Shown piece after piece: positions 13,575 to 29,338 of a DNA stretch of 64,000 nt. Positions within the stretch are counted from its first letter, which is position 1, and each line of letters opens with the position of its first letter. Under the pieces are notes generated by a model, which made no database searches, had not been told where the DNA came from, and was given only the letters and a program-made list of their open reading frames with translations. Position numbers and translations under genes: made by a program. Source of the stretch: Bacteroidota bacterium (lineage in GTDB: Bacteria; Bacteroidota; Ignavibacteria; Kryptoniales; JAKASW01); NCBI GenBank assembly GCA_021825585.1, contig JAKAGT010000009.1, forward strand, positions 1 through 64,000, in the 5' to 3' direction.

Positions 13575-14615
13575 TTAGCCTGGGGAATCCCCTGAGCCAT
13601 TGAGCCAAAACCCAAATATCTTCCCGATCAGCGCTCTCTTGTCGTCTATCGGCAGAAACGACGAACCGACTGCATTTAGTGTCAACTCAATCAGATCTTC
13701 TTCTGAGTAGCCAAGTTTGTTCACAAGGAGTGCGAACTCGTCCGTAATACTCGAGCCGAACATAGATGGATCATCGGAGTTGACTGTCAGCATCAAGCCA
13801 TCCTTGAACATTTTGTCGAAGGGATGTTCCTCCACGGAGGAATAGACTCCCGTCTTCAGATTGCTCGTGATGCACACTTCAAGTGGAATCTGTCTCTCTT
13901 TAAGGACCTCGAGCAGCCGATGGTCCTCGCTTGCCCTGACTCCGTGTCCGATTCGCTCCGCCTCAAGTGCCGTAACCGCATTCCACACCGACGCCGGACC
14001 GGATGCCTCCCCCGCATGAACGGTCGTCCTGAAGCCGAGCTGTCTTGCCGTACGGAAAGCCGTTTGAAACAGCTCAGGGGGAAAATCCCGTTCGTTGCCA
14101 CCGAGACCGATTCCGATTACTCCTCTGTCGAGGTAAGGCGCCATTTGCCTGACTCTTTCCTCCGCCGCTTCTGCTCCGTAATCGCGAACTATATCTGCGA
14201 TCAGCCCGCACCTTATCGGGAACTCACGCTCGGCACTCTTCATCCCCGATATGGTTGCCTCCGTGATTTCCTCGACGCGAAGTCCGTTTGACACGAAGTC
14301 CCATGGTGAAAAAAACGCCTCGGCATAAATCACGTTCTGGTCGGAGAGATTCTTCAGAACCAGCCGCGCGGACTCCTCAAAGTCGGCGGGCGACCGAAAG
14401 AACCTGTTTTTCCAGAACCACGTCTCGATGAAGTGCGCAAAGTCTCTGAACACGAACCGACGACTTAGTTCATCCACACTCGAAATTCTTTCTTCACCTC
14501 CGTATTTCTGAATCAGGCCGAACAGGAATTCATACGTGAAGGCTCCTTCCAGGTGAACGTGCAGCTCGACCTTCGGCATGGTTCCAATGACCTCCGGAAG
14601 AAATCTTGCTTCCAT
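13575..14615 (-). CDS. add: Adenosine deaminase
   Basis: A 346-residue zinc-dependent metal hydrolase that converts adenosine to inosine. The metal ligands are visible as ELHVHLEGAF (His19, His21), the HAGEASGP block, and SDDPSMFG with the Asp pair near the C-terminus. I choose ATG 14615, seven bases after the nupC stop, with GAGG upstream; a TTG at 14633 would be inside nupC. It is the last gene of an ahcY-nupC-add run, where it would consume adenosine released by AhcY or imported by NupC. Aminodeoxyfutalosine deaminase is a related alternative but no menaquinone genes are near. Confidence 0.88.
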   Translation of the reverse strand: MEARFLPEVIGTMPKVELHVHLEGAFTYEFLFGLIQKYGGEERISSVDELSRRFVFRDFAHFIETWFWKNRFFRSPADFEESARLVLKNLSDQNVIYAEAFFSPWDFVSNGLRVEEITEATISGMKSAEREFPIRCGLIADIVRDYGAEAAEERVRQMAPYLDRGVIGIGLGGNERDFPPELFQTAFRTARQLGFRTTVHAGEASGPASVWNAVTALEAERIGHGVRASEDHRLLEVLKERQIPLEVCITSNLKTGVYSSVEEHPFDKMFKDGLMLTVNSDDPSMFGSSITDEFALLVNKLGYSEEDLIELTLNAVGSSFLPIDDKRALIGKIFGFWLNGSGDSPG

Positions 14616-14622
14616 CGACACC

Positions 14623-15930
14623 TCACAGACCAAGTATGGCTGAACTCGTGAAGAAGAGACCCGACATGCAAGCAGTCATCAGGCATGCAAGATTAGCCCC
14701 GACCAATGCACGCAGACCGAACCTGGCAATGTCTCTTGTCCGCTCGGGGGCGATTGCCGCATACCCTCCAACGAAGATGGCCACAGACGCAATGTGGGCG
14801 AACCCGGTCAGAGCATACGTGGCCATGACGGCTGAGCGAGGGGAAATTCCTGCTCCGCTGGAATAGAGTCTCGCCAGGTCCTGAAATGCCGGCACTTCCG
14901 TCAGCACCAGCCGTTCTCCGATTATCTTCGCGATATAACCGGCATCATGCAGTGGCACGCCGATGAGAAGTGTGAGCGGATAGAACACATAACCCAGGAG
15001 ACCTCTCAAAGTCCACTCGAGATTGATCGAGAACAGGCTGTTGACATGCGAGCCGGCAATCACCATGACCTTGTCCAGGAGTGCTACGAGTCCGAGCACC
15101 GCCAGAAGCATCCCGACAATTCCGACGACGAGTTTGACGCCCGCATTTGCGCTGTTGATTATCGCCTCGAACAAGCCGCTTTCTCTCTTATATTCCGGAG
15201 TCACCTTTTTCCCTATGGTTTCAGGTTCCTCTGTCTCGGGATATAATATTTTCGAGAAGACAATTGCTGCGGTCACGTTCATGACGGCCGCAGATACAAG
15301 GTGGCCGGCAATGTTGGGGAATTGTCCGCGGAGGATTGTTATATAAGCCGCGAGCATGCTCGATGCAATCGTCGCCATTCCGGTCGTCATGATCGTATTC
15401 AATTCCGAACGCGTCATTTTTCCCAGGAACGGCCTTATCACCAAAGCCGCCTCGACACCGACGAAGATGTTTGCCGATCCACAGAGCGACTCTGCTCCGC
15501 TTATCTTCATGAGCTTCGTGAACATAAACGAAAAAGCCCTTATCACCCTCGTCATGATCCCGGTATAGTAGAATATACCGACGAGCGCCGAAAAGAATAC
15601 CATCGTGGAAAGGCTTTGAATCGCGAGTATGAAGCCGATTGATGTCTGGCCGATCTCGTCAGTGGTCCCCGGCGCAAGCGCGAGACGACCGAAAACGAAC
15701 CTCGTCCCCGCGGTCGCGCTGTCCAGTATGCCGTTCATCAGGTTATTTATGAGGAGAAAAAACTCCGCACCTATCGGCAGGACGAAGACAAACACGTCAA
15801 AAACCAGGATGATGACCAGCCCGGAAACAACGATCCTCCAGCTGATCATCTTTCTGTTTGCCGACAGCAGCCAGGCGATAAACAGAAGTCCTGCAATGCC
15901 AAATACGCCTGTTAGTTTGGAGAAATCCAT
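14623..15930 (-). CDS. nupC: Concentrative nucleoside transporter, NupC/CNT family
   Basis: A 435-residue inner-membrane symporter for nucleosides driven by H+ or Na+. It has the CNT order of segments: an N-terminal hydrophobic helix set, the SLSTMVFFSALVGI loop, the GAESLCGSANIFVGVEAAL motif (partly quoted: ESLCGSANIFVGVEAAL) that lines the nucleoside site, and the C-terminal TYALTGFAHIASVAIFVGG motif. It sits 16 bases after ahcY and seven before add, so it provides uptake of nucleosides, probably adenosine, for the two enzymes. Confidence 0.92.
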   Translation of the reverse strand: MDFSKLTGVFGIAGLLFIAWLLSANRKMISWRIVVSGLVIILVFDVFVFVLPIGAEFFLLINNLMNGILDSATAGTRFVFGRLALAPGTTDEIGQTSIGFILAIQSLSTMVFFSALVGIFYYTGIMTRVIRAFSFMFTKLMKISGAESLCGSANIFVGVEAALVIRPFLGKMTRSELNTIMTTGMATIASSMLAAYITILRGQFPNIAGHLVSAAVMNVTAAIVFSKILYPETEEPETIGKKVTPEYKRESGLFEAIINSANAGVKLVVGIVGMLLAVLGLVALLDKVMVIAGSHVNSLFSINLEWTLRGLLGYVFYPLTLLIGVPLHDAGYIAKIIGERLVLTEVPAFQDLARLYSSGAGISPRSAVMATYALTGFAHIASVAIFVGGYAAIAPERTRDIARFGLRALVGANLACLMTACMSGLFFTSSAILGL

Positions 15931-15946
15931 TATACCCTCAGGAAAT

Positions 15947-17152
15947 CTACTTATCGATTGAGATGCCTTCCGCTTTCAACTTTTCCTCCACAACGATTCT
16001 GTCGATCTCTACCGGGACCGGATAAATTTTCGGCTCGAGTTTTGGAGACGACAGGAAGTGATGAAGGCAGGACAACTGGACGGAAAAAGACATGTCCATT
16101 ATGTCGGCCGGATGGCCCAGCCCGCCGGCAATATTAACGATGCCTCCGCTCGCCAGCAGGTAGAGCCTCTTTTGGTTCCACAGCATGTATTCATCGATTT
16201 CATCGCGTACCCTGGCGGCGGACACGGAATTCTTCTTCAGCGTCTGAATGTCGATCTCAAAATCAAAGTGACCCGCATTTGCAAGGAACGCTCCGTCCTT
16301 CATTTTCTCCATATGGTCGAACCTGATTACACTTTCGGCACCCGTCGTCGTCACGAAGAAATCGCCGAGCGGTGCGGCGTCGGTCATCCGCATCACACGA
16401 TATCCGTCCATCCTGGCTTCCAGGGCTTTCCACGGATCGATCTCGGTCACTATCACCTCTGCACCGAGGCCCGCGGCTCTCGCGGCGACCCCTTTCCCGA
16501 CCCAGCCGTAGCCGACGACAACCACCGTCTTGCCCGCAACGTTCATGTTGGTCAGATGCGTTATTGCTGTCCAGGTAGACTGTCCGGTGCCGTACCTGTT
16601 GTCGAAAAGGTGCTTCGAGCCGGCATCGTTCACCGCAACGGCAGGATACCTGAGTCGGCCGGTCGCCTCTAACGCTCTCAGCCGGTTTACGCCTGTCGTG
16701 GTTTCCTCGCAAATGCCGAGCATGTTTTGACCGTATTCCGGATGCTCATGAAGGTACTCACAGATGTCGCCTCCGTCGTCTACTGCAGCATCCATCCCGT
16801 CCCTGAGAATCGAGTGGATGAAGGAAAAATACTCTTCGCGGGACGCAGCATGCTTTGCGTAAACATGCACGCCGTGTTTCGCCAGCGCGGCCGCGACTTC
16901 ATCCTTTGTCGAGAGCGGGTTGCTCCCGGTGATCCACACGTCGGCTCCCAGCTTCTTGATGGAGAGTGCAAGGTGTGCTGTCTTGGCTTCGAGATGTATG
17001 CAGAGTGCAACCCGCTTATTCCTGAATTCACCCGTGCGCTCGAACTTCTCACGCAGGCCGTTCAGCACGGGCATTCGTCTGGAAACCCACTCGATCTGGC
17101 GTTCTCCTTCTTCCGCCAACCCGATATCGCGTACAAGATAATCTTCGGACAT
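15947..17152 (-). CDS. ahcY: S-adenosylhomocysteine hydrolase, short archaeal/Thermotoga-like form
   Basis: A 401-residue NAD-dependent enzyme that splits S-adenosylhomocysteine into adenosine and homocysteine. Seen: CIHLEAKTAHLA, the substrate loop CEETTTGVNRL, DNRYGTGQSTW, the Rossmann glycine motif VVVGYGWVGKGVA, and GHPADIMDMSFSVQ. The length is near 400, it appears to lack the roughly 40-residue insert, and its C-terminus lacks the KPDHYRY tail of mesophilic enzymes, so it belongs to the short class. GGAG lies eight bases before the ATG. It starts 47 bases after the TonB receptor gene and heads the ahcY-nupC-add run. Confidence 0.93.
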   Translation of the reverse strand: MSEDYLVRDIGLAEEGERQIEWVSRRMPVLNGLREKFERTGEFRNKRVALCIHLEAKTAHLALSIKKLGADVWITGSNPLSTKDEVAAALAKHGVHVYAKHAASREEYFSFIHSILRDGMDAAVDDGGDICEYLHEHPEYGQNMLGICEETTTGVNRLRALEATGRLRYPAVAVNDAGSKHLFDNRYGTGQSTWTAITHLTNMNVAGKTVVVVGYGWVGKGVAARAAGLGAEVIVTEIDPWKALEARMDGYRVMRMTDAAPLGDFFVTTTGAESVIRFDHMEKMKDGAFLANAGHFDFEIDIQTLKKNSVSAARVRDEIDEYMLWNQKRLYLLASGGIVNIAGGLGHPADIMDMSFSVQLSCLHHFLSSPKLEPKIYPVPVEIDRIVVEEKLKAEGISIDK

Positions 17153-17199: not shown

Positions 17200-19419
17200 T
17201 CATTCTTTTCCCGTCAACAAGGAGCCACTGATTCCGATTGAGAGTCTTACCTCCCTTCCCGGCACGGGCGAGCCATCCACGATCTGAATTTCCTTGTTGG
17301 CAAGATTGTTCCCTTCGATACGAATCATCCAGTCGAGTCCCGCCCAATTTGGAGTGATACCCGCGTTGGCGCCGAACAGGCTGTATCCTCCCAGGGCCAC
17401 TGTGTTTTGCGGATCATTAAACCTCTTGCCCACATAATTGTAGTAGAAGTTCACCGAAGCGATCAGGTAATTCAGGTTGAGGCTCAGATCGAACTTGTCC
17501 TTCGGCCTGTAGATGAGATATTTTCCAGCGGTCGTCGGATCGTTGCCGTCATCCTTCGCAATCATATAGGTATACCCGGCCTGTATTTCGACCGCATTGT
17601 TGAAACCCATCCATCCGAGTTTCGACTCGAGACCGTCGGTCTTTGCCCTTGCGACGTTTTCCGGCATCCACTTTTCGGCCGGCGCCCAGAGGATGAGATC
17701 GTTCATCCTGCTGCCGAAGTAGGTCTCTTCGATATTCCAGCTTCCCAGCCCTGCAAATTGAAATATGAATCCGAAATCGAACGTCGTGCCTCTTTCCGGC
17801 TTCAGGTTCGGGTTCCCTTTCGTCCAGGAGTCCTCCGGCCAATAAAGATCATTATATGTTGGTGCCCTATAGACCCTTCCAACGTTAGCGCGGACGGAAC
17901 CCCGCCATCCCTGATCGTGGCTAAGGTTTATACCGACTTTCGGGGAAAACTGCGAACCGATCGATTTCTCCGGGTAGGCATCGAGTCGGGCGGCGGGTAC
18001 GATCGAAAGCTTCCACACATGGTCGAAGTCATATTTCCAATCGTCCTGGAAATAGACGCTGTTTATGTCCCGCTGGTGATCACCCAAATAGGGGACCTCG
18101 ACGCGATTCACAAAATCGCGGCTCTCCAACCTGTCCTGCCGGTACTCGTAACCGTACGAAAAGAGCCCGTATTGTGCAAGATCGGTAAAGACCTGAAACA
18201 ACACACCGAGCGCCCGGTTATTGAATTTGTTCTCCTCCAGACCGAGGTACGATTGCGGGTCAGAGTACCGGGACTCCTGATCGGCGAGGTAAACATTCAG
18301 GCTGAACGCAAAAGCTCCGAACGAGAGCCCGTCATACGTGATGCTGTAAAGGTTGCTTCTCGTCCGTTGTCTAGCAAGCGTGTTCGGAAAATCGGTTGAT
18401 CCGGGCGAGCCGTTGTTGGAATATCTGTACTTGAAGAATGCCGCCAGGCGCGACCGGTCGGGGAACAAATATCCCGCCTTGAAGAATGCATTGTCAGACT
18501 TTGTGTCGGAGTTAAGAAACGGGACCTTCTCCCCTGCATTGTTCGTGTAATCGTAATTCCCGCCCGACTGGGTCTGATTGTAAGAGGCGAAGTAATTGAA
18601 GTCGCTTATCCCCTGGCCGACTGACAGGTCGTATATCTTCGTATTGTACGTCCCGTACAGGCCTTGGGCGGAAAAATCCAGAGTGTGCTTTCGCGTCATC
18701 GGCTTGGTTATGATGTTGATCACCCCTCCGACCGCGTCGCTCCCGTACATGGCTGTGTTCCCGCCCTTTACGACTTCGACCCTCTCCACGGCATCAAGAG
18801 GAATCGTGCTCAGGTCCACCGATCCGGACTGTGCGTCGTTAACCCTTTGTCCGTCGATCAGGACAAGGACCTGCGCGTCGGTGGATCCCCTGAGAGAAAT
18901 AGTCTGCAGCGAGCCTGCGGCTCCGTAACTCTTCACAAAAGATGCGCCGACCGTCCTCAACGCCTCACCCACGTTCTTCGCATTCGACTCTTCGATCGTC
19001 TTCGTGCTCAGGACTTCAGTAGATGCGGGGACCGATGTGACCAGCGCCTCGTTTCTTGTTGCCGTGACGACTACCTCTGTAAACGAAAGCTCGTCATTCG
19101 CCAAATCGAAATTGTAAACGGCGTCTGCGGCTCCCTCGATGGTAATGTCCTTCTCGATTCTTCTGTAGCCCAGCATACTGCAAACCAGAATCCATTTGCC
19201 GGCCGGGACGGAGGTCATCGTGTATCTTCCCTCGTCGTCCGTCATCCCGCCGGTATGGGTGCCTTTCAGATAGACGCTCGCACCGACGAGCGCCTTGCCC
19301 GACTTCCCATCCTTCACCACTCCGCTGACCGTCGAGGTACTCTGGGCGGGGAGTTCCCGGGCCACGAAGAGCATCAGGAACGCAATAACGGTTCTGAAAA
19401 GAATAACTTTCAATTTCAT
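17200..19419 (-). CDS. TonB-dependent receptor with carboxypeptidase-like N-terminal domain (BtuB-like)
   Basis: A 739-residue outer-membrane receptor. A signal peptide is followed by a carboxypeptidase-regulatory-like fold (VSGVVKDGKSGKALVGASV, residues about 30-115), a TonB-box-like stretch (TEVVVTATR), the plug (LRTVGASFVKSY to MYGSDAVGGVINIIT) and a 22-strand barrel ending PVPGREVRLSIGISGSL. Plug and barrel resemble cobalamin receptors of the BtuB class. It is a paralogue of the next gene upstream, which lacks the N-terminal domain. Position suggests cobamide or a related corrinoid as cargo; specificity cannot be proved from sequence. Confidence 0.88.
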   Translation of the reverse strand: MKLKVILFRTVIAFLMLFVARELPAQSTSTVSGVVKDGKSGKALVGASVYLKGTHTGGMTDDEGRYTMTSVPAGKWILVCSMLGYRRIEKDITIEGAADAVYNFDLANDELSFTEVVVTATRNEALVTSVPASTEVLSTKTIEESNAKNVGEALRTVGASFVKSYGAAGSLQTISLRGSTDAQVLVLIDGQRVNDAQSGSVDLSTIPLDAVERVEVVKGGNTAMYGSDAVGGVINIITKPMTRKHTLDFSAQGLYGTYNTKIYDLSVGQGISDFNYFASYNQTQSGGNYDYTNNAGEKVPFLNSDTKSDNAFFKAGYLFPDRSRLAAFFKYRYSNNGSPGSTDFPNTLARQRTRSNLYSITYDGLSFGAFAFSLNVYLADQESRYSDPQSYLGLEENKFNNRALGVLFQVFTDLAQYGLFSYGYEYRQDRLESRDFVNRVEVPYLGDHQRDINSVYFQDDWKYDFDHVWKLSIVPAARLDAYPEKSIGSQFSPKVGINLSHDQGWRGSVRANVGRVYRAPTYNDLYWPEDSWTKGNPNLKPERGTTFDFGFIFQFAGLGSWNIEETYFGSRMNDLILWAPAEKWMPENVARAKTDGLESKLGWMGFNNAVEIQAGYTYMIAKDDGNDPTTAGKYLIYRPKDKFDLSLNLNYLIASVNFYYNYVGKRFNDPQNTVALGGYSLFGANAGITPNWAGLDWMIRIEGNNLANKEIQIVDGSPVPGREVRLSIGISGSLLTGKE

Positions 19420-19518: not shown

Positions 19519-21387
19519 TTACAGAAGACTTATCCCAACGGTAAAGCGGACTTCCCGGCCCGGCATCGGATAGCCGTCGCTGAGACGGTAATTCTTGTTG
19601 AGAATATTATTGAGATCAAACCTCGCCGACCACTTCAGGCCAAGGTAAGCCGGCGTGACTCCCACGTTCGCGTTCCACAGACTTACATCGGATAAAGCGG
19701 CGGTGTTACCTACGTCGACGTATCTCTTGCTCAGGAACTGATAGTTCAGGTTCACGTTTACCAGTCCCATCGTGAGCGAGCCGTTGAGATCAAGTTTATG
19801 ATAAGGCCGGTATATAAGGAGCTTCCCGTCGCTGGAGCCGCCGCTCTTATCGCGTGCGTCCATGTAAGTGTGATTGATTTCCAGGTTCAGCATGTCGTTC
19901 ATGAGCTTCACCCCAACGTACGTTTCCAGGCCCGTCGTGAGAGACTGAGAGACGTTGGTCGGCACCCACTTGTAATCGGCTCTCGGCGCCCAGATGATCT
20001 GGTCGGTGAGCTTGCTGTAGAAGTAGTTCATCTTCACCAAGGTCTTGCTGAGAAACGGAATCGTAACGCCGTACCCTAGCTCAAAAGTCGTCCCCTTCTC
20101 CGGTTTCAAATTCGGGTTGCCGGCGGTGTAAGCGTCTTCCGGCCAGTAAAGGTCGTTGAACGTTGGCGCCCTGTAAGACTTGCTGAGATTTGCATCGATT
20201 CCGAATGCGTATTCACTGGTATTGCCGAGCGTGACACTGATCTTCGGACTGAATACCTTGTCGAAGTCGGACGGCGCATCGTAGCGAACGGCCGGAACGA
20301 CGGAGACATTGTCGAAGAAGAAGCCGAGGTTCTTCAATCCGAAGTTCACGGCAAGGTGGCCGCTTTGCGTATCGCGGTTTTTTATGCCGATCGAATTGCT
20401 GTTCGCATGGTCGTGCCGGTAAACGTAACCGTAAGTAAGAGTCATGAGACTTGAAACCGGGTTGTTCTGCGTCAGCTCCAATCCATAAGCGCTGCTCTTC
20501 TGGTCGCTGTGAGTGGGAGCCGGGTAACTGTCGGGATCATCGTAACGAATCCGGAAGTTGTGATAATATGTATTCGCAGCGAAATCGGCGTCGCCGAACA
20601 CCTTGCTCTGACTGTAGTTGAGGTTGTAGATCATGTTGTCCAGCCGCATGTAGGCATTCGGCGTTATGATGGGCCAATTGACAAGACCCACGACGCTTCC
20701 CGGCGTCCCGGTTTCTGATGAGGTAACTTGCGTGGAGAAGGTGAGTTTCGAGAGCGGCAGAAGTTCGTCGTAACCCAATTTCACGAGGAAGTCGTTCGCC
20801 TTGTTGTAATTATTGGTCCGGGTTGCCTCGGTTCCGTTCGTCTCTTTGTAGGTAAAATTCCCGTCGGTCTGGGTTCTCTTATAAGACAGGTAATAGTTGA
20901 AATGCTTGACGGAATTTGACGTGTAGACGTTGTAGAACTGCGAGTTGAACGAGCCGTAAGTCGCGCGCAGACCGAGGTCCATGTTCGATTTCTCGCCGGC
21001 CCGCCTCGTGATGAAATTCACGACACCTCCGACGGCATCGGCGCCGTAGCGCGCGGAGTTGCCGCCGCGCAGGACTTCCACTTTCTCGATGGCGTCGATC
21101 GGAATCGAAGTCGCATCGAATTCCCCGCTCTGCGCGCTGTTCATCCGCTGGCCGTCGATGAGTATCAGGACTTTGTTGGAGGAAGCATCCCTGATATTGA
21201 TTTGACCCTCACGGATGTAAATTCCGGGAATGGACTTTAAAGCCTCAGCCATATCCTCCGCGTTCGTTTTATCCGAGAGGTCTTTAGCCGACACGACTTC
21301 TTTCTCAGTGTTCTCCTGGCTGTAAGCGAGCCCGCTGAATGAAAGAAGCATCGTCAGCATAAATACAACAGCGCCCCTGTGTTTCAT
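19519..21387 (-). CDS. TonB-dependent receptor, BtuB-like
   Basis: A 622-residue outer-membrane receptor close in size to BtuB. It has a signal peptide (MKHRGAVVFMLTMLLSF), a plug with IPGIYIREGQINIR, DGQRMNSAQSG and GADAVGGVVNFIT, and a barrel ending MPGREVRFTVGISLL, an aromatic-last-strand form. It starts 31 bases after the DraG/PHP gene and probably shares its transcript. Together with the BtuF-like and ECF genes it fits an outer-membrane step for corrinoids or their fragments. Alternative cargo, for example another nucleotide-like cofactor, is possible. Confidence 0.88.
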   Translation of the reverse strand: MKHRGAVVFMLTMLLSFSGLAYSQENTEKEVVSAKDLSDKTNAEDMAEALKSIPGIYIREGQINIRDASSNKVLILIDGQRMNSAQSGEFDATSIPIDAIEKVEVLRGGNSARYGADAVGGVVNFITRRAGEKSNMDLGLRATYGSFNSQFYNVYTSNSVKHFNYYLSYKRTQTDGNFTYKETNGTEATRTNNYNKANDFLVKLGYDELLPLSKLTFSTQVTSSETGTPGSVVGLVNWPIITPNAYMRLDNMIYNLNYSQSKVFGDADFAANTYYHNFRIRYDDPDSYPAPTHSDQKSSAYGLELTQNNPVSSLMTLTYGYVYRHDHANSNSIGIKNRDTQSGHLAVNFGLKNLGFFFDNVSVVPAVRYDAPSDFDKVFSPKISVTLGNTSEYAFGIDANLSKSYRAPTFNDLYWPEDAYTAGNPNLKPEKGTTFELGYGVTIPFLSKTLVKMNYFYSKLTDQIIWAPRADYKWVPTNVSQSLTTGLETYVGVKLMNDMLNLEINHTYMDARDKSGGSSDGKLLIYRPYHKLDLNGSLTMGLVNVNLNYQFLSKRYVDVGNTAALSDVSLWNANVGVTPAYLGLKWSARFDLNNILNKNYRLSDGYPMPGREVRFTVGISLL

Positions 21388-21418: not shown

Positions 21419-23131
21419 TCAATTGGGATCGATACCTCTATTTGCATGCCTTGTTGAGTTTCCGGTATTTTTCCAGCTTGTCGGACCGTCCTGCATGTTT
21501 ATTTGCGGATGGGAGAGAAACCTGTTCCATTCGACCGCTTGTTTTGGATCCTTCCACTCCTGCTTCGCATTGTGGGAATACGGGGGATAATCCAGGTAAA
21601 TCGGATCGGTAATCGCATACATCGGCCACTCTCCGAAGCATTCGACGACCATCCATCCGTCCTCCTTCGTCGTCAAATGCAGCTTGACATCGAGAGCGTA
21701 AGTAGAATCGGTAGGGATTTCCCTTGCAGTTTCTCCGTTTACGATTACCCTGATTGCACGGCGGCTTTTAAGCAGCGGCCGGTTCGCAAATACTTTTATT
21801 TCAATTCCGACCGTCCCGTCACCGGCAACTCTTGCCGTCTCCCCCGGAATTCTGCCGTTTGCCTCAACGAGTACGAGAGGTCCGAAAGAGGAGTCCGATG
21901 CCTCTGTTGTGATTTCGCAGCCCAGAATCGGCAGGAAGACTCTGCTTTTTGCCGTGAGCCATTCACGTGCGCCGGCAATGGTGTTGTGGTCGGTCAATAT
22001 CCCCCACGAAAGTCCCACTCCTTTCATCGCGCGTGCAACTTCCCACGGCGGCTGCACTCCGTCGCTGTAGAAACTATGGTGGTGCATATCGCCCGGATAC
22101 CAGCCGAGATTTTGCAGGTCGTACATTCTGACAATCGATGTGTCGAACTCTATGCCATCGAATTCATTTGCACCTGCGGCGAAGACTTTCTTGACAAGGC
22201 TCCATTCGGGACCCTTCGTCACGATAAGAACGACCGTGTCGCAGTCTCCTCCGATGTTGGCGGCAGCCATGGCAGCCTTCACGGGATTCCCATCGTAGTA
22301 AACAACGAGCGCCAGAGCACTCGGCACAGATTCCGACATGGCAACTCCCGTCCCGATATAGTCGTACAAGTCCCTCCAGATCTTCTGCTCGTCGCCGTTC
22401 GACTTCACTATTTTCAACGCCTCCTCGGCGCGCTTGGCGATCGATGCGCCGTACCACCTGTTTCCGAATTTCGATCCCTTATCGATTCCATAGAAGAACG
22501 CCCCGACGACGCCGTCAAGAGTTGCTCCCGCCATCGCTGCAGATACGGCACACGCTACTGCCGACGCTCCGGATATCGCGATGTCGGTATTGTGCGTCGG
22601 AAGACAGACCTCCGCAACGTCTTCTACCACCTCGTTGAATTTGCCCGGGTGCACGATTCCGACCGGGGCGATTTTCATGGCGGCTCCGTTGGTATCTCCC
22701 ATCGATCCTGAACTCTCGAGCGCCGCCCCGTCTTCGATCATCTTCAACGCTTTCAGTGTGCTCGGCCCGAGAATCATGGACTCGTAAGCATTCAGGCTCT
22801 TCGCCCACTCGAGCAGCTTGCGAGCCACGCCCTCTCTGGTGAATCTCTTTTCCTCGAGAAACAGGTCGACGAGCAGCAGAGTCTGCTGGGTATCGTCGGT
22901 CACCTGGCCGGCCTTCAGGCCGTCATGGATGATGTGACCTCTCGGAGCGGGCAGAAGCGACTTGATCCCGCCGGGAAACTGTTTCCTGATCGTTTCCGGC
23001 GACATAAGCGAACTGGGCATCCCCATAGCATCGCCATATGCGACACCCAGCAGCGATCCGAGAGCTTTTTCGTAAATAATTTCTTTCACCTGCGAACGTT
23101 TTCCTTTTTCGACCGATTCGATATTTACCAT
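21419..23131 (-). CDS. ADP-ribosylglycohydrolase (DraG) domain fused to a shortened PHP phosphoesterase domain
   Basis: 570 residues. Residues about 20-325 are a DraG/ARH-type domain: the first metal motif TDDT is at 78-81, GDTNGAAM at 145-152, and the last metal motif GGDCDT at 294-299. Known members are Mg-dependent hydrolases of alpha-N-glycosidic bonds to ribose. Residues about 344-410 begin a PHP domain of the CehA/McbA kind: GDMHHHS (His350, His352), TDHN (380-383) and GCE (404-406). The sequence then passes straight to the C-terminal beta part (ECFGEWPMYAITDPIYLD), so the middle third of the PHP fold with its later metal ligands seems absent. The ATG at 23131 overlaps the ecfT stop (TAATG) with GGAG upstream. 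Its role in this cobamide-type locus is unknown; see findings. Confidence 0.85.
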   Translation of the reverse strand: MVNIESVEKGKRSQVKEIIYEKALGSLLGVAYGDAMGMPSSLMSPETIRKQFPGGIKSLLPAPRGHIIHDGLKAGQVTDDTQQTLLLVDLFLEEKRFTREGVARKLLEWAKSLNAYESMILGPSTLKALKMIEDGAALESSGSMGDTNGAAMKIAPVGIVHPGKFNEVVEDVAEVCLPTHNTDIAISGASAVACAVSAAMAGATLDGVVGAFFYGIDKGSKFGNRWYGASIAKRAEEALKIVKSNGDEQKIWRDLYDYIGTGVAMSESVPSALALVVYYDGNPVKAAMAAANIGGDCDTVVLIVTKGPEWSLVKKVFAAGANEFDGIEFDTSIVRMYDLQNLGWYPGDMHHHSFYSDGVQPPWEVARAMKGVGLSWGILTDHNTIAGAREWLTAKSRVFLPILGCEITTEASDSSFGPLVLVEANGRIPGETARVAGDGTVGIEIKVFANRPLLKSRRAIRVIVNGETAREIPTDSTYALDVKLHLTTKEDGWMVVECFGEWPMYAITDPIYLDYPPYSHNAKQEWKDPKQAVEWNRFLSHPQINMQDGPTSWKNTGNSTRHANRGIDPN

Positions 23132-23940
23132 TACAGGACTCCTAAGTTCTTGACTTTCGCCAGGATTGCCGCCGCCAGCACAACGACTTCCCCCGCACAC
23201 ACTGCGTAATCGACCGGGGCCATCCTTATCTCGTGAAGGCTGGTCGTCGTCTTCATGGCACCGAACCCGCGGTTGAGCATCGCTACCGCAAGGTTGTCCG
23301 ACATCCTGATAGATTCCACTATCATCGGTACCAGAACTGGTATATAGGACTTCAGGCTGTCGATCGGCCCTCCCTTGCCGAAGGCGGCACCCCTGGACAT
23401 CTGGGCCTGCTGAATCAATTCAGCCTTCCTCCGCATGACGGGGACGAATCGAATTCCGGTCGCGATCACGAACGCAATCTGATATGGCATCTTCATCTTC
23501 TTCATCATCTGGAGTATGTCAGCTACAGAGGTAGTGTAGGTCATGACCGTGGACGCGACCACCATGACCAATATCCTCATCGCAAGCGTCGTCCCGTAAA
23601 AAAGCCCGCCCATCGAAAAGGCAAACGCATCGCCGGACGACAGACGAAAGATGACCGCCGCATTTCCCGGATCGCGAAAATTCTGTGGGGGAAAAGTGAA
23701 CCCGGTTATCACGACCATCAGCAAGAATATCGGCAGAAGAGGTTTGAGTACCGGAGTTACGCCAGAGACAGGCACGCGTGCTTCGATGAGCATAAGTACG
23801 GACACAACAAGGGGGACGAGCACGAACATCGGGGAGATAAATACAAACGAGACAACTGTCAGCACGACAAACCCGGCGACCTTCGTCCGTACATCGAGTC
23901 TGTGAAGGAAACTGTCGGACGGCCTGTATTCTACGAACAT
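23131..23940 (-). CDS. ecfT: ECF transporter transmembrane (T) component, CbiQ/EcfT family
   Basis: A 269-residue integral membrane coupling subunit. Several hydrophobic helices are followed by the two cytosolic coupling-helix motifs, MSRGAAFG and MLNRGFGA, which dock onto the ATPases. The start PSDSFLHRLDVRTKV matches the CbiQ N-terminus. It begins four bases after the ECF ATPase stop and overlaps the DraG/PHP gene by one base. It would couple ATP hydrolysis to the S-component encoded three genes upstream. Confidence 0.93.
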   Translation of the reverse strand: MFVEYRPSDSFLHRLDVRTKVAGFVVLTVVSFVFISPMFVLVPLVVSVLMLIEARVPVSGVTPVLKPLLPIFLLMVVITGFTFPPQNFRDPGNAAVIFRLSSGDAFAFSMGGLFYGTTLAMRILVMVVASTVMTYTTSVADILQMMKKMKMPYQIAFVIATGIRFVPVMRRKAELIQQAQMSRGAAFGKGGPIDSLKSYIPVLVPMIVESIRMSDNLAVAMLNRGFGAMKTTTSLHEIRMAPVDYAVCAGEVVVLAAAILAKVKNLGVL

Positions 23941-23944
23941 AACG

Positions 23945-25693
23945 TTAATTCACCCGCACATTCTGCATACGTTCCACTATTCCTCTCATGGTAAAAGGCG
24001 CGTTTGCCAGGCCCTTTTCTTTAAGCCGGCAGCCTATTCTGGCGCTAAGCGGTGGTACTACGCCCGCGGCGGAGAGCAGGTCCGGGTGAGAGAACACATC
24101 AGTCGGCGAACCATCCAGTAAGCACCGGCCGTTCGAAAAAAGGATAATGCGATCCGCATACTCGACTGCGAGCCTCATGTTGTGAGTAATGGCGAGGATG
24201 GTGTGCCCCCGGGCATGCAGATCCTCGATCATTTGCAACATCCTCTTCGTGCCGTCCCAGTCCTGACCTGTCGTCGGTTCGTCTATTACGAGAATGCCCG
24301 GCTCCATCACGAGTATCGAAGCAAATGCGAGCTTTTGCCTTTCGCCTTTTCCAAGCGTGAATGGATGACGCTCGGAATCGCCGTCGAGCCCCACGAACCG
24401 CAGCGCAGCAAGTACCCTCTTCTCTATTTCGGCCCCGGGCAGATGCAGTTAACCGAGTCCGAACGCGACTTCATCCCGGACCGTTGCTGAGAAGATCTGG
24501 TGGTCGGGATTTTGAAACACGTAACCCACTTCTCTGCTCAATTCCGTCGTGGTGAGTCTCTCGATGTTTCTACCGTTGATCCTTACCTCGCCTGCGTTCG
24601 GACGGATAAGCCCATTGAGCAATTTCGAGAACGTCGTTTTGCCAGCGCCGTTCTTCCCGATCAACGCGACAAACTCCCCCCTGCCGATACCGATGTTGAG
24701 ATGATCCAGCGCAAGTATTTCTCCGCCGTAAGAAAAACTTACGTCGCGGACTTCTATGACCGGCGTAGAATATCCCTCTGAGAACAAATCGCCGCGCTCT
24801 TCAACTTTTTTGGCCGAAATCGAATAAATATCTGAAACCTTATTTACGAACTCTTCCTCACCTGCTGCCGTCGCCGTTACGTGCGCATCGTTCCCGGCAA
24901 AAATCAAATCCGACATCTCGACCGTCTCGAGCGGGCGTATGCCGTACCTGCTCATAACGTCCAGGTCGGTTAATATATTGGCAGGGACATCGTCGCAGGC
25001 GACCTTACCTCCATCCAGCACCACCAGCCGGTCGACATACTTCGCCATTTCCTCGGTGTCGTGCCCTGAGATTATTAACGTGGTGCCCTCTTTCTCCCTC
25101 AAGTTCGAAAGGAGGCGATAAATCTCCTCCCTCCCGCTCGGATCGAGTTCAGACGTCGGCTCGTCGAGGACAATTATCTCCGGCTCCATAGCCAGCACTC
25201 CCGCAATTGCCAGCCGCTGCTTTTCACCGCCGGACAGCTCCGACGCCAGTCTCTTTTCGAACCCTTCCAGTCCCACGGTCGCGAGTGATTTGCGAACGAG
25301 AAAATCGATCCTCTCCCGAGGAAAGGAGAAGTTCGAGGGCCCGAACGCCACGTCTTCCTCCACGGTTCGCCCGAAAATTTGGGTCTCCGGGTCCTGCATG
25401 ACCAGCCCAATGAATCTGGCAAGTGTTTGAACCCTATATTTCCGAGTGTTCATCGTATTCGAGAACACGGTACCGTCGAATTTCCCCTCGAAAAAGTGCG
25501 GGATCAGGCCGTTCAACAGCATTAGAACCGTGGTCTTGCCGGCACCTGTCCTTCCCATTACACCGACAAAATCCCCCTTCTTGATCTCCAGATCGATCTG
25601 CCGGAGAGTGTCTCCGCTTGCCTTCTGATACCGGAAATTCGCAAGCTTTATGACGATAGAACCGCGCTCCATCTCGCCACCGGTGTGAGTCAT
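23945..25693 (-). pseudogene. Double ECF ATPase (EcfA1-EcfA2 in one chain) interrupted by an in-frame ochre codon
   Basis: The frame would encode about 582 residues with two complete ABC domains. Domain 1 has GRTGAGKTT, LSGGEKQRLAI and VLDEPTSELDP; domain 2 has GKNGAGKTT, VGYVFQNPDHQIF, LGKGERQKLAF and VIDEPTTGQDW. Codon 415 is TAA (24449-24451), between DEVAFGLG and LHLPGAEIEKR, where homologues continue without a gap; both sides stay in the same frame. As written, domain 2 loses its signature and Walker B. It may be a genuine inactivation or a base error. The start ATG at 25693 overlaps the kinase stop by four bases (ATGA). Confidence 0.85.
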
Positions 25694-26508
25694 TTGCGAA
25701 GCCCGCCGATTATGGAAACAGGTTTCGGAATTCTTCTTATCAGGTCCTCGCCGCCGCCACGGGAGAGTGAAACCAGGCAGCATGTTGAAGGACCCGCCGA
25801 CTTGTCGACGTCGACGCCGGCTGTGCCGTGAGTCTCCGGGGCCAGTCCCGCCACCCGGGCCAGCTCACCAAACTCATACCGGATTCCTTTCGAACCGACC
25901 GGAAGAATTTCGTGCACATATTCCAGCTTCGTCAGCGCCGAGATGGTTTCCGGCGTGGCGATCTCAGGGTCGTGATAGGTGATCTTATACTCGGGAGCCG
26001 ATTTCGGAAGACCCACGGAAACAATGACGTCCCCGTCCGTACTTCTCCCCGGCCTGAAGTCGAACCTGCTTACAAGTCCGATGACCACTACCCCCATTCC
26101 GGTCGATACCGTAACGACATTGTCCTCCGTACTCCCCGTGATCATGACATCAAAGTCCAGCCCTGCCTCTGACACCTCGTCCTTAACACCGCGGATAATT
26201 TCTTTTCCGGTCGGGTCCATCTCCACCGCGAGCGCATCAACCACCGCAATCGGAACAGCTCCGCACGCAAGTATCTCCATCAGGGGAACACGCGTACCCA
26301 GCCTTCCAAGGTCGTAAGCCGGCGAATAGACGGAGTCGAACTTCTTCGGCCCGATTCCCCCGTCCGAATCGCAGGCTACGACCATCCACAGATCCTCACT
26401 GAGTTGAGTCAATGTCAGGTCCCGCACCTGGCGGCTTACAGTAGTATTTGCGCGCTTCCCATCTTTCAGTGACAGATAGAAGTCCATTATGTTTCCCGGT
26501 GCAGACAT
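25690..26508 (-). CDS. cblS: CblS-like alpha-ribazole kinase (AIR-synthase-related)
   Basis: A 272-residue PurM/AIR-synthase-like ATP-binding protein. It carries the features I recognise from CblS, the kinase that phosphorylates alpha-ribazole for cobamide nucleotide-loop assembly: RDLTLTQL, the VVACDSDGGIGPKK segment, GTRVPLMEILACGA, EMDPTGKEIIRG and the ITGSTEDN motif. The neighbouring S-component gene matches the transport partner CblT, which strengthens the call. It starts one base after that gene's stop. A thiamine-monophosphate-kinase-like role is the main alternative, but no thiamine genes are nearby. Confidence 0.78.
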   Translation of the reverse strand: MSAPGNIMDFYLSLKDGKRANTTVSRQVRDLTLTQLSEDLWMVVACDSDGGIGPKKFDSVYSPAYDLGRLGTRVPLMEILACGAVPIAVVDALAVEMDPTGKEIIRGVKDEVSEAGLDFDVMITGSTEDNVVTVSTGMGVVVIGLVSRFDFRPGRSTDGDVIVSVGLPKSAPEYKITYHDPEIATPETISALTKLEYVHEILPVGSKGIRYEFGELARVAGLAPETHGTAGVDVDKSAGPSTCCLVSLSRGGGEDLIRRIPKPVSIIGGLRK

Positions 26509-26509
26509 C

Positions 26510-27046
26510 TTACACCATCATGCTCCTTTTGATGATCGTATACGCGGCTATAGCGACGGACACGTTGACGGCCGCCCCGATCGTAAGCGGAAGTACGAGC
26601 GCTATTGCGAGTCCCAGACCCCCGATAGGAACCACTAGTAGTGAAGATCCAGGTCCGTTCAGGAGTACCGCTACGAAGGCACCGAACCACACGTGAACTT
26701 TTTTGGCAAGGAGTTGGAACGCTGTGACCCACGCCGCCATCTGGACGGCGATGAACACGTGCATCGGCAGGCTGAGCGGGAAACCGGTCGTCAGCGCGGT
26801 CAGCATGTGCCCAAACGCGGCTACGATGGCCCCTTCGCGCCAGCCGAATGTAATCGCGGAGAAGAACCCGAACGCCGCATCGAGGGCTACGGTCCCGGTC
26901 GGACTGGGAACCTTGACCATCGCTCCGACGGCGCTCATCGATATAAATATCGCCATGCGCGCGACCCTTTTCGGGGACCAGAACGAGCGCCCCGCCGACA
27001 GGTCAAGCTCTTCCTCGGGAATCGGAACGTTTGACAAGCCAATCAC
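26510..27046 (-). CDS. cblT: CblT-like ECF transporter S-component (predicted alpha-ribazole uptake)
   Basis: A 178-residue membrane protein with about six hydrophobic segments. It shows the AMVKVPSPTGTVALD and GHMLTALTTGFPLSLP features that I associate with CblT-type substrate-binding subunits. It starts with GTG at 27046, overlapping the regulator stop by four bases (GTGA). Its neighbours are the CblS-like kinase, the ECF ATPases and EcfT, so a complete ECF importer is encoded. Substrate assignment to alpha-ribazole rests on CblT/CblS pairing, which is known from Firmicutes, and is inference here. Confidence 0.75.
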   Translation of the reverse strand: MIGLSNVPIPEEELDLSAGRSFWSPKRVARMAIFISMSAVGAMVKVPSPTGTVALDAAFGFFSAITFGWREGAIVAAFGHMLTALTTGFPLSLPMHVFIAVQMAAWVTAFQLLAKKVHVWFGAFVAVLLNGPGSSLLVVPIGGLGLAIALVLPLTIGAAVNVSVAIAAYTIIKRSMMV

Positions 27047-27804
27047 CGTACGAGTTCGTTTAATTCCAGGCTCACCCTCTCGTCCTTTCCAAACGAGAAC
27101 TCGCAGCGATCACCCGGCATGAAAGAGCGTGTAACTTCGACAATCTCACCATTTTTTGTGAATGTCTTGCGCGTCAGAAAGAATATCGGCGAGCCTCGCT
27201 TCACATTTAGCAGATCGGCTTCATACTGCTCAGCCTTCAGACACGAGAGGCTCTCGGCAGAGTAGCCTATCGACACGCCGAATTTTTCCCGGAGTATTTC
27301 GTACAACGAGTTCTTCTCGAGATCATAGGACAGCAGGCCGGGACAGAAGAATTTCGGGACGTATGAAGTCTGCAGTGCGACCGGCACCTCGCTCATCAGC
27401 CTCAGCCTCTGGATCCGGAAAACCTCCGTACTCTCCTTCAGCTTCAGATATCCCAGTGACTCCGGAGATTCTTTCACCTCTTCGGACAGAATAACCTTTG
27501 TAACGAGATGACCCCCGTTCGATTTGAATTCGGAAGAAAAGCTCAGCGCCTCCGTAAGCCCGACGAATTTCTTCTTGCTTGCGACGAACGTCCCTTTCCC
27601 CTGAACCCGGTACAAGATTCCCTCCGAGACCAGATCGGATAGCGCCTGGCGTGCCGTGTTCCGGCTCACCTTCACCAGGCCGACGAATTCGTTTTCGGAA
27701 GGAATACGATCTCCCGGCTTATACCTGCCGATGTCGATCTCCTCTTTTATGATCTCTTCCAGCTGGTAATAAAGCGGCATCAGGCTGTCTCTGTTGATTT
27801 CCAT
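27043..27804 (-). CDS. GntR-family regulator, HutC/UTRA subfamily
   Basis: 253 residues. An N-terminal winged helix (PLYYQLEEIIKEEIDIGRYK, DRIPSENEF, VSRNTARQALSDL) is followed by a UTRA ligand-binding domain (from about residue 85 to the end, with VFRIQRLRL and EVTRSFMPGDRCEF). It lies at the head of the ECF genes and behind the BtuF-like gene, with AAGG eight bases before its ATG. It most likely senses a pathway metabolite and controls this operon. UTRA ligands in known members are small phosphosugars or nucleoside-like molecules, which would fit a ribotide effector. Confidence 0.9.
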   Translation of the reverse strand: MEINRDSLMPLYYQLEEIIKEEIDIGRYKPGDRIPSENEFVGLVKVSRNTARQALSDLVSEGILYRVQGKGTFVASKKKFVGLTEALSFSSEFKSNGGHLVTKVILSEEVKESPESLGYLKLKESTEVFRIQRLRLMSEVPVALQTSYVPKFFCPGLLSYDLEKNSLYEILREKFGVSIGYSAESLSCLKAEQYEADLLNVKRGSPIFFLTRKTFTKNGEIVEVTRSFMPGDRCEFSFGKDERVSLELNELVR

Positions 27805-27823: not shown

Positions 27824-28862
27824 CTAGTTGCCTTTATAATTCGTGCTTAATAACAGTTCGCCGCCCGCGGGCAGGGGAGGCAGGAATCTAAGCAGATTCG
27901 AAAATGTGGTTTCCATATTGGAGGGCACTCTGTCCAATTCCATGAGTGTCGTGTCGCCCGGTGCATGGATCGTCTTCCCGAATAAGTCTGCCGCTGTCGG
28001 AATCAGCGGCTCCGCCTGCTTTGTCTTGGCGGAGTTTATGTAACGAACCCTTCCATACCTGACCGCATTTACGGTTCCCGCGCCGGGCCTGTGTGCTATT
28101 TCATAAGGCGTCGTTGTACCGTAGCCGACCGAGTCGCCGGAGAAGTAAGGGCCCTCCCGCGTTTTCCCAGAGCGGCACCAGGATCACGTCCGGATTTGCC
28201 TCAACGATCTCTTCCCATGATACGCTCGGTGCGATTCCTGCCCTGTCGGAAAAAACCGGCTCCGCTCCCACCATCTTCATAAGCTCGGTGATGTACGAGT
28301 CCTTTCCCGGTACACACTTATATGCATAGTTGATTTCGTAGTAGACCTTCACCTTCGGCTTACCGGCGTATTTCGCTACGACAGATTTTAGCCCGGTCCT
28401 GATGCTGTCTACCAGCGTCTCGGCGTTCCTTTCCCTTCCAATTGCCTTCCCGAGATCCAATATCTTCGTGTAGACTTCTTTCAGGCCCGCTTCATCCATG
28501 TGGACCACCTTGTATCCCTCGGCTGAGAATTTCTTGCGTAATGAGGATTGAAGCCCGGTGCAGGTGAGGATAACATCCGGGTGGAGAGCCTCTACTTTCC
28601 TGACATCGATGTCGGTAAGGCCGCCGACCACCTCAAGCTTCCCTTCCTTGACCAGCCGCGGGATGGAATCGGGGAAGATGCAGTATCTGGTGACGCCGAC
28701 CAGGTTGCCTGCCGCTCCAAGGGCCGCCACTACATTCGTCCAATTGGGTGCCAAGGATACTATCCTCAGCTCCTGAGTCACGCCCTGACTCAAGGCGGTC
28801 AGACATAGAAGAAAACCGACAAAAGATGCCCGAAGACGGAAATTAGCCTCTCTCTTACCCAT
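27824..28862 (-). pseudogene. BtuF-like periplasmic corrinoid-binding protein, single frameshift
   Basis: From ATG 28862 (GGAGG five bases upstream) comes a signal peptide and a class III binding-protein domain: LRIVSLAPNWTNVVAALGA, GGLTDIDVRKVEALHPDVI, and VPLWENAGGP near residue 235. There the frame shifts. As written the chain ends at 28101, but the next frame continues YFSGDSVGYGTTTPYEIAH, NAVRYGRVRYIN and a further 65 or so residues to TAG at 27824. The total span is 3n+1 bases, so one extra base near 28144-28151 accounts for it. The tail after the GRVRYI strand is longer than in BtuF and unfamiliar to me. It leads the cobamide-type operon, 19 bases before the GntR gene. Confidence 0.82.
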
Positions 28863-29338
28863 TTCAGCCTCCGACTTGTTGGGTTGTTGGTACAAGTTAA
28901 ACTCAAAACCTACGTTTGTCAAGTGCCCTGGAGATTCCAGCCGCCGCTGCAATTAACAGGCTTCCATAGCTGCTTGCACCGCACTCACCCGTGCTTTGAG
29001 TGATACTACCGCTGCTCCCTATCCTTCTTCTTCTGAGGCAAGCGACCTCCCCCATCGGGCGTTTCAATCACTTTCGTTGACCACGGCAGCTGCTCTCCAA
29101 AAGTAATTCCCCATGTGATTCCGCACGACGACGGGATAGCGCAAGCATCCCGCCGTGAGTCGACAAGGCGGGCTACCGTTCCCTTTGAACTTAACATTCG
29201 TTTCAGTCGTTAGGTCGGTATATTCTCCGTTATCGGAATATCGGCTGCCCCGCTGCCACCATAGCCTGTTGCCGGCAGCGTCATCGTCTTAGGAACATAT
29301 TCTCCCTTTCAAAAGAAATAATTTGAAATTACTTTCTA
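28863..29338. promoter_or_regulatory. Divergent intergenic region between the BtuF-like gene and moxR
   Basis: These 476 bases must hold two divergent promoters. I found no clear gene and no canonical cobalamin or TPP riboswitch, though this is where a cobalamin riboswitch would be expected. The minus strand does hold a GGGAA, CCCG, GGAGA, CTGCC series over 29080-29190, which is only loosely reminiscent of one. A strong stem-loop lies inside (listed separately). A 63-codon open frame at 29006-29197 is not convincing. Confidence 0.4.
29128..29156. other. Stem-loop in the divergent intergenic region
   Basis: ACGACGGGAT (29128-29137) pairs with ATCCCGCCGT (29147-29156) with one A-C mismatch. 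Inside, GC (29139-29140) and GC (29145-29146) close a GCAA tetraloop with one bulged A. It is about 12 pairs in all and lies 266 bases upstream of the BtuF-like start. The function is unknown: a leader element for the minus-strand operon or a mobile palindrome are both possible. Confidence 0.55.

Follow-up and report, generated by a model that had tools for sequence, protein, structure and literature searches.

We suggest that YegU-type enzymes of the DraG/ARH superfamily, where intact, belong to modules that import and break down ribosides (nucleosides), and that they cleave the bond between ribose and base. Drawing on sequence comparisons, we give this reading a probability of roughly 55%. 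The new element is the link of YegU-type DraG enzymes to a CblS-like clade and to nucleoside catabolism, which offers an orphan family of wide occurrence a concrete function that can be tested. The copy in the window (the whole stretch of 64,000 nucleotides that was analysed) is truncated and probably inactive. Since it is damaged, what we say about function rests on intact relatives.

The window copy is part of a fused, probably decaying gene

The initial annotation described a DraG-type glycosidase with intact TDDT and GGDCDT metal motifs and a gene that overlaps ecfT. Both motifs can be read directly in the DraG part of the ORF (TDDT at residues 78-81), and the ATG overlaps the end of ecfT by one base. 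Pfam PF03747 (ADP_ribosyl_GH) covers residues 25-303 (E 4.4e-56; 191 bits against a cut-off of 26.2), which places the protein in the DraG/ARH superfamily. The DraG-type gene is real, but the ORF, judged from its alignments, is a fusion of about 300 DraG residues with a twice-deleted CehA/McbA metallohydrolase. Beyond about residue 303 the sequence is no longer DraG and consists of pieces of a CehA/McbA (PHP) metallohydrolase (NF038032, 5e-26), with the PHP and CehA/McbA matches beginning at residue 343. For each of five related genomes, the ORF aligns in three pieces to two separate genes, one for a DraG protein about 344-347 aa long and one for a CehA-like protein of roughly 550 aa, whose N-terminus is hydrophobic and resembles a signal peptide.

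The DraG part stops straight after GGDCDT, where the orthologues run on for about 45 residues, and the C-terminal helices are absent, so that the domain is incomplete. The "1-330 domain" that the initial annotation had put forward for purification is therefore not a natural one, because DraG sequence ends near residue 303 without those helices. The joint is in frame, at an Asp-Thr position common to both genes. Compared with the relatives, about 470-535 bp are lost there, comprising the DraG C-terminus, the intergenic stretch and the CehA N-terminus. A second loss relative to the orthologues, of 537 bp at about 21887 inside CehA, takes the metal-ligand-like motifs GHLNQ, NHP and SDCHD and leaves an incomplete PHP domain. 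The second half of the ORF thus resembles the CehA/McbA metallohydrolases, intact in the neighbouring gene of the relatives, but the remnant in the window is without the middle of the PHP domain and the N-terminus. A search of solved structures with the CehA-like orthologue returned no match.

The frame is kept at both joints and 570 codons run without a stop, which could point to a functional new bifunctional enzyme in place of a decaying gene. We regard this as very improbable, given that the fused protein has lost the CehA metal-ligand-like motifs, the CehA N-terminus and the DraG C-terminal helices, and that two other genes of the operon, EcfA and the BtuF-like one, are broken as well. The EcfAA´ gene is broken up at 24449-24451 by a TAA that lies in frame. 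Its two ORFs lie in one frame and align continuously to a 584-aa orthologue, the gene being a single ORF of 576-585 aa in relatives; a frameshift, suspected from the two ORFs, was thereby replaced by the in-frame TAA as the explanation and ruled out. The BtuF-like gene is frameshifted near 28150, with two frames that match one 334-aa orthologue. The remaining nine genes of the cassette appear complete. That a single operon carries four lesions suggests decay, and from these readings we consider the window copy of the cassette to be probably decaying; assembly error is possible as an alternative source of the lesions.

The CehA-like gene is also split into two ORFs in locus L052 (7174-8853), the same locus as in L064. 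CehA may therefore be lost more readily than its neighbours.

A conserved 13-gene cassette

A scan of 395 genomes of the phylum found close orthologues of the DraG part (58-72% identity) in five other genomes, all of which carry a fully syntenic 13-gene cassette; a DraG orthologue was found in none of 12 genus-mates. The cassette begins with genes for a BtuF-like protein, a GntR regulator, an ECF S component, an AIRS-like protein, EcfAA´, EcfT and DraG, and continues after DraG with a CehA-like hydrolase, two TonB receptors, an S-adenosylhomocysteine hydrolase (SAHase), a CNT nucleoside transporter and adenosine deaminase (Table 1). The first of the TonB-dependent receptors falls under the TIGR01779 cut-off (151 against 599.7 bits).

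Table 1. Features of the cassette in the window, with the basis of each assignment.
Feature	Position	Strand	Basis
Fused ORF	21419-23131	minus	ATG at 23131, 570 aa
DraG/YegU-type part, residues 1-303	22223..23131	minus	Pfam PF03747; 58-72% identity to intact orthologues
CehA/McbA (PHP) metallohydrolase remnant, in-frame fusion to DraG	21419..22222	minus	NCBIfam NF038032
EcfT (ECF transporter T component)	23131..23940	minus	Pfam CbiQ 5.3e-30; syntenic orthologues
Fused EcfAA´ ATPase gene	23945..25783	minus	two ORFs split by TAA
AIRS/PurM-like protein, CblS homologue, DraG-linked clade	25690..26508	minus	Pfam AIRS 3.3e-8; tree of 125
ECF S component, CblT-like	26510..27046	minus	Pfam ECF_trnsprt 2.6e-8
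GntR-UTRA transcription regulator	27043..27804	minus	Pfam UTRA 2.9e-35, GntR 6.3e-20
BtuF-like (Peripla_BP_2) substrate-binding protein gene	27878..28952	minus	orthologue Peripla_BP_2 2.1e-20
TonB-dependent receptor 1	19519..21387	minus	syntenic; TonB-B12 family best match
TonB-dependent receptor 2	17200..19419	minus	syntenic orthologues, 56-61% identical
Second, divergent S-adenosylhomocysteine hydrolase	15947..17152	minus	Pfam 5e-49
CNT/NupC-type nucleoside transporter	14623..15930	minus	Pfam Nucleos_tra2_C 3.9e-61
Adenosine deaminase	13575..14633	minus	Pfam A_deaminase 5.9e-87; TIGR01430 301 bits vs cut-off 216.6

The DraG-linked PurM-like proteins form a clade apart from cobamide genes

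The initial annotation took the neighbours for cblST and proposed that, by splitting imported nucleosides of the alpha-ribazole type, the enzyme may allow the lower ligand of a cobamide to be exchanged. Homologues of CblT and CblS do lie beside DraG, and DraG and a cblST-like pair occur in the same six of 395 phylum genomes, but the pair is not of the cobamide-linked kind and its PurM-like member falls in a separate clade. The check that the initial annotation had named, co-occurrence with cblST, thus has a mixed outcome. Scanning named genomes with an AIRS alignment yielded 45 loci; sampling added 4 of 396 Actinomycetota and 95 of 398 Bacillota genomes, and we read eighty more regions as well. 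Among 125 PurM-like (AIRS) "CblS" homologues placed in one tree, a single clade of 42 rows (support 98/97) takes in all 28 DraG-linked AIRS proteins, and all 33 AIRS proteins with cobamide genes nearby lie outside it. DraG adjoins AIRS in 28 of the 42 rows of the clade, several of the other rows being cut contigs. No cob genes were found within about 9 kb at any of the 28 DraG-linked loci, and DraG is absent where CblS homologues stand beside cobS, cobU, cobC, cobQ or cobD. ECF S homologues adjoin the AIRS genes in most loci. The structure model of the AIRS protein is nearest to HypE, ThiL, SelD and PurM/PurL, consistent with an ATP-using enzyme, though not necessarily a kinase.

The host genomes point in the same direction. 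With positive controls throughout, CobT was not found in the window genome, the five genomes with intact cassettes or two neighbours, and CobS was not found in the window genome, the same five genomes or 11 other related genomes. The window has no Rfam match to the cobalamin riboswitch at gathering thresholds. Of 27 genomes with a DraG-linked AIRS protein, 7 have CobS, versus 81 of 83 in which the AIRS protein lies outside the clade; the Fisher p of 4e-14 for this contrast ignores shared ancestry, so that it is safer to rely on the split between clades. Where nucleotide-loop assembly is absent, there is nothing for an exchanged lower ligand to go onto, and in a host without the genes to rebuild the B12 tail a role in B12 remodelling is very unlikely. 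The homology of the S component and AIRS protein to CblT and CblS, together with the BtuB-like and BtuF-like proteins of the cassette, speaks for such a role. Against these stand the missing CobS and CobT, the separation of all cobamide-linked loci from the DraG-linked clade, the skewed distribution of CobS and the lack of a riboswitch match. On the absence of CobS and CobT and the separation of the clades, we rejected cobamide remodelling for these hosts, which we rate the most improbable of the alternatives considered.

Alpha-ribazole salvage by CblT and CblS in Listeria and Geobacillus, as papers citing the original work describe it, likewise involves an S component and a PurM-like protein in tandem. 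The cassette proteins differ in that they fall in a separate clade, are joined by DraG, have no cobamide genes nearby and occur in hosts that mostly have no CobS. As some genes annotated cblT or cblS are not cobamide genes, alpha-ribazole salvagers may be overcounted where the count relies on CblS annotation.

Five Cutibacterium AIRS proteins (L094, L096, L099, L101 and L105) lie inside the DraG-linked clade with no adjacent DraG, and their genomes have CobS. These may represent a return to cobamide use.

Neighbourhoods of the nucleoside type

A core of GntR-EcfS-AIRS-EcfAA´-EcfT-DraG is common to Ignavibacteriota, Bacillota and Leifsonia. At six loci (L079, L081, L090, L110, L128 and L166), a Bmp-type nucleoside ABC importer takes the place of the ECF importer alongside DraG and AIRS. 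One of these, L110, combines a PfkB kinase, the Bmp-type importer, two IU nucleoside hydrolases, AIRS and DraG; another, L128, has GntR, DraG, a PfkB kinase, the Bmp-type importer, AIRS, an IF-2B-family protein and an Indigoidine_A (PsuG-family) protein. The two are, in effect, bacterial nucleoside catabolic operons, of the sort made up of a Bmp-type importer, IU nucleoside hydrolase, ribokinase and PsuG, with DraG and AIRS added. The ECF form differs from such operons in having no IU hydrolase, and DraG may take that place. At locus L080, AIRS adjoins an IU nucleoside hydrolase and no DraG was found. A YegV-like PfkB stretch lies between the GntR and ECF genes at L091 and L095, and the window cassette itself also has the CNT transporter and adenosine deaminase. 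From the IU hydrolase and the PsuG-family protein as neighbours, no more can be read than an involvement of nucleosides in general.

Upstream of the cassette at L077, on the opposite strand, there is a second YegU-type DraG together with a PfkB stretch that weakly resembles YegV (8-1996).

E. coli YegU belongs to the same subfamily

In a tree built with the orthologues, the window protein being truncated, E. coli YegU groups within the AIRS-linked DraG clade (support 99/99) and away from the remaining DraG-family members in the phylum. The window protein is 35.5% identical to YegU over 287 aa. In yegTUV, yegT codes for a predicted nucleoside symporter and yegV for a PfkB kinase, and the regulator is the GntR protein YegW. 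As in the cassette, a GntR-UTRA regulator and a transporter of nucleoside type (here the predicted symporter) thus accompany the DraG-type gene; yegTUV differs in its MFS-type YegT and PfkB-type YegV and in having neither an ECF importer nor a PurM-like protein. A search of the accessible literature on YegU and on DraG-family nucleoside hydrolases found no enzymatic activity for the clade and returned only the GgaR paper (PMC10819704). That study of GgaR (YegW) ties yegTUV to ADP-glucose and glycogen.

The cassette DraG shares its fold and metal motifs with the ADP-ribosyl hydrolases DraG, ARH1 and ARH3, and one could assign it, with DraG, Tri1 and ARH, to the enzymes that remove ADP-ribose from proteins. 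We hold this to be very improbable. The protein falls far under the equivalog cut-offs for dinitrogenase-reductase DraG (TIGR02662, 53.6 against 337.05 bits) and for the Tri1 ADP-ribosylarginine hydrolase (NF041672, 37.7 against 490 bits), and the genes conserved around it encode importers, kinases and nucleoside enzymes rather than ADP-ribosyltransferases. A model of the intact DraG orthologue (pLDDT 91.8) is nearest to MJ1187 among solved structures, then to DraG and ARH3; identity to DraG, ARH1 and ARH3 is about 20-24% in structural alignments, and the gene context differs from theirs in being one of nucleoside import and catabolism. A search for DraT gave no match in 17 genomes, with the controls silent too.

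Somewhat less remote, though still unlikely, is a substrate such as alpha-NAD, ADP-ribose or ADP-glucose, an ADP-sugar or NAD-derived compound in place of a nucleoside. Characterised relatives bind ADP-ribose, ARH1 and ARH3 cleave alpha-NAD+, and GgaR, the repressor of yegTUV, has been proposed to sense ADP-glucose (PMC10819704). The importers and neighbours in the modules are, however, of the nucleoside type, and charged dinucleotides would presumably make unlikely cargo.

A proposed route of riboside breakdown

The sequences show directly the architecture, the lesions, the phylogeny, the gene neighbourhoods and the lack of CobS and CobT. We infer which reaction the module carries out, in what order its steps run, and which substrate and anomer it takes, as follows. 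A riboside would enter through the ECF or the Bmp-type ABC importer. The PurM-fold enzyme (in the cassette), a PfkB kinase (such as E. coli YegV) or both would phosphorylate the riboside or the freed sugar, either before or after cleavage. The DraG-type enzyme, probably Mg-dependent, would hydrolyse the ribose-base bond and so release the base together with either ribose or ribose 5-phosphate.

The initial annotation suggested that the enzyme may act on the alpha-N-ribosidic bond of cobamide nucleotides. The cobamide link fell away with the host genomes and the clade split; by analogy, cleavage of an alpha-N-ribosidic bond by a DraG-type enzyme stays plausible, as the families of the S component, the PurM-like protein and DraG include proteins that act on alpha-ribosides. 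Because characterised relatives of all three act on such compounds, an alpha-anomeric substrate is favoured, though not established; IU hydrolase and PsuG-family neighbours act on ordinary (beta) nucleosides, so that alpha specificity may be wrong. More tentatively, and with odds well short of even, there may be a pathway of alpha-riboside breakdown in which CblT-like import, a CblS-like PurM-fold kinase and YegU-type cleavage of the alpha-N-ribosidic bond act together in at least three phyla, and to which E. coli yegTUV would belong. A pathway of this kind, for alpha-ribazole-like or other alpha-nucleosides, would be previously undescribed. Alpha-ribosides such as alpha-ribazole have been reported in the environment (PMC9296465), and they could thus have a route of breakdown.

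If YegU-type DraG enzymes do cleave ribosides, E. coli yegTUV would be an operon of nucleoside catabolism rather than of ADP-ribosylation, and many genes annotated as "ADP-ribosylglycohydrolase" would likewise become nucleoside-catabolic. In the Ignavibacteriota form of the cassette, simple nucleoside uptake does not account for the TonB receptors, the BtuF-like protein or the CehA-like hydrolase, and the proposed route leaves the second SAHase unexplained as well. There are two SAHases in each genome with the cassette, and one or none in related genomes without it; the real substrate of the cassette SAHase may differ from S-adenosylhomocysteine.
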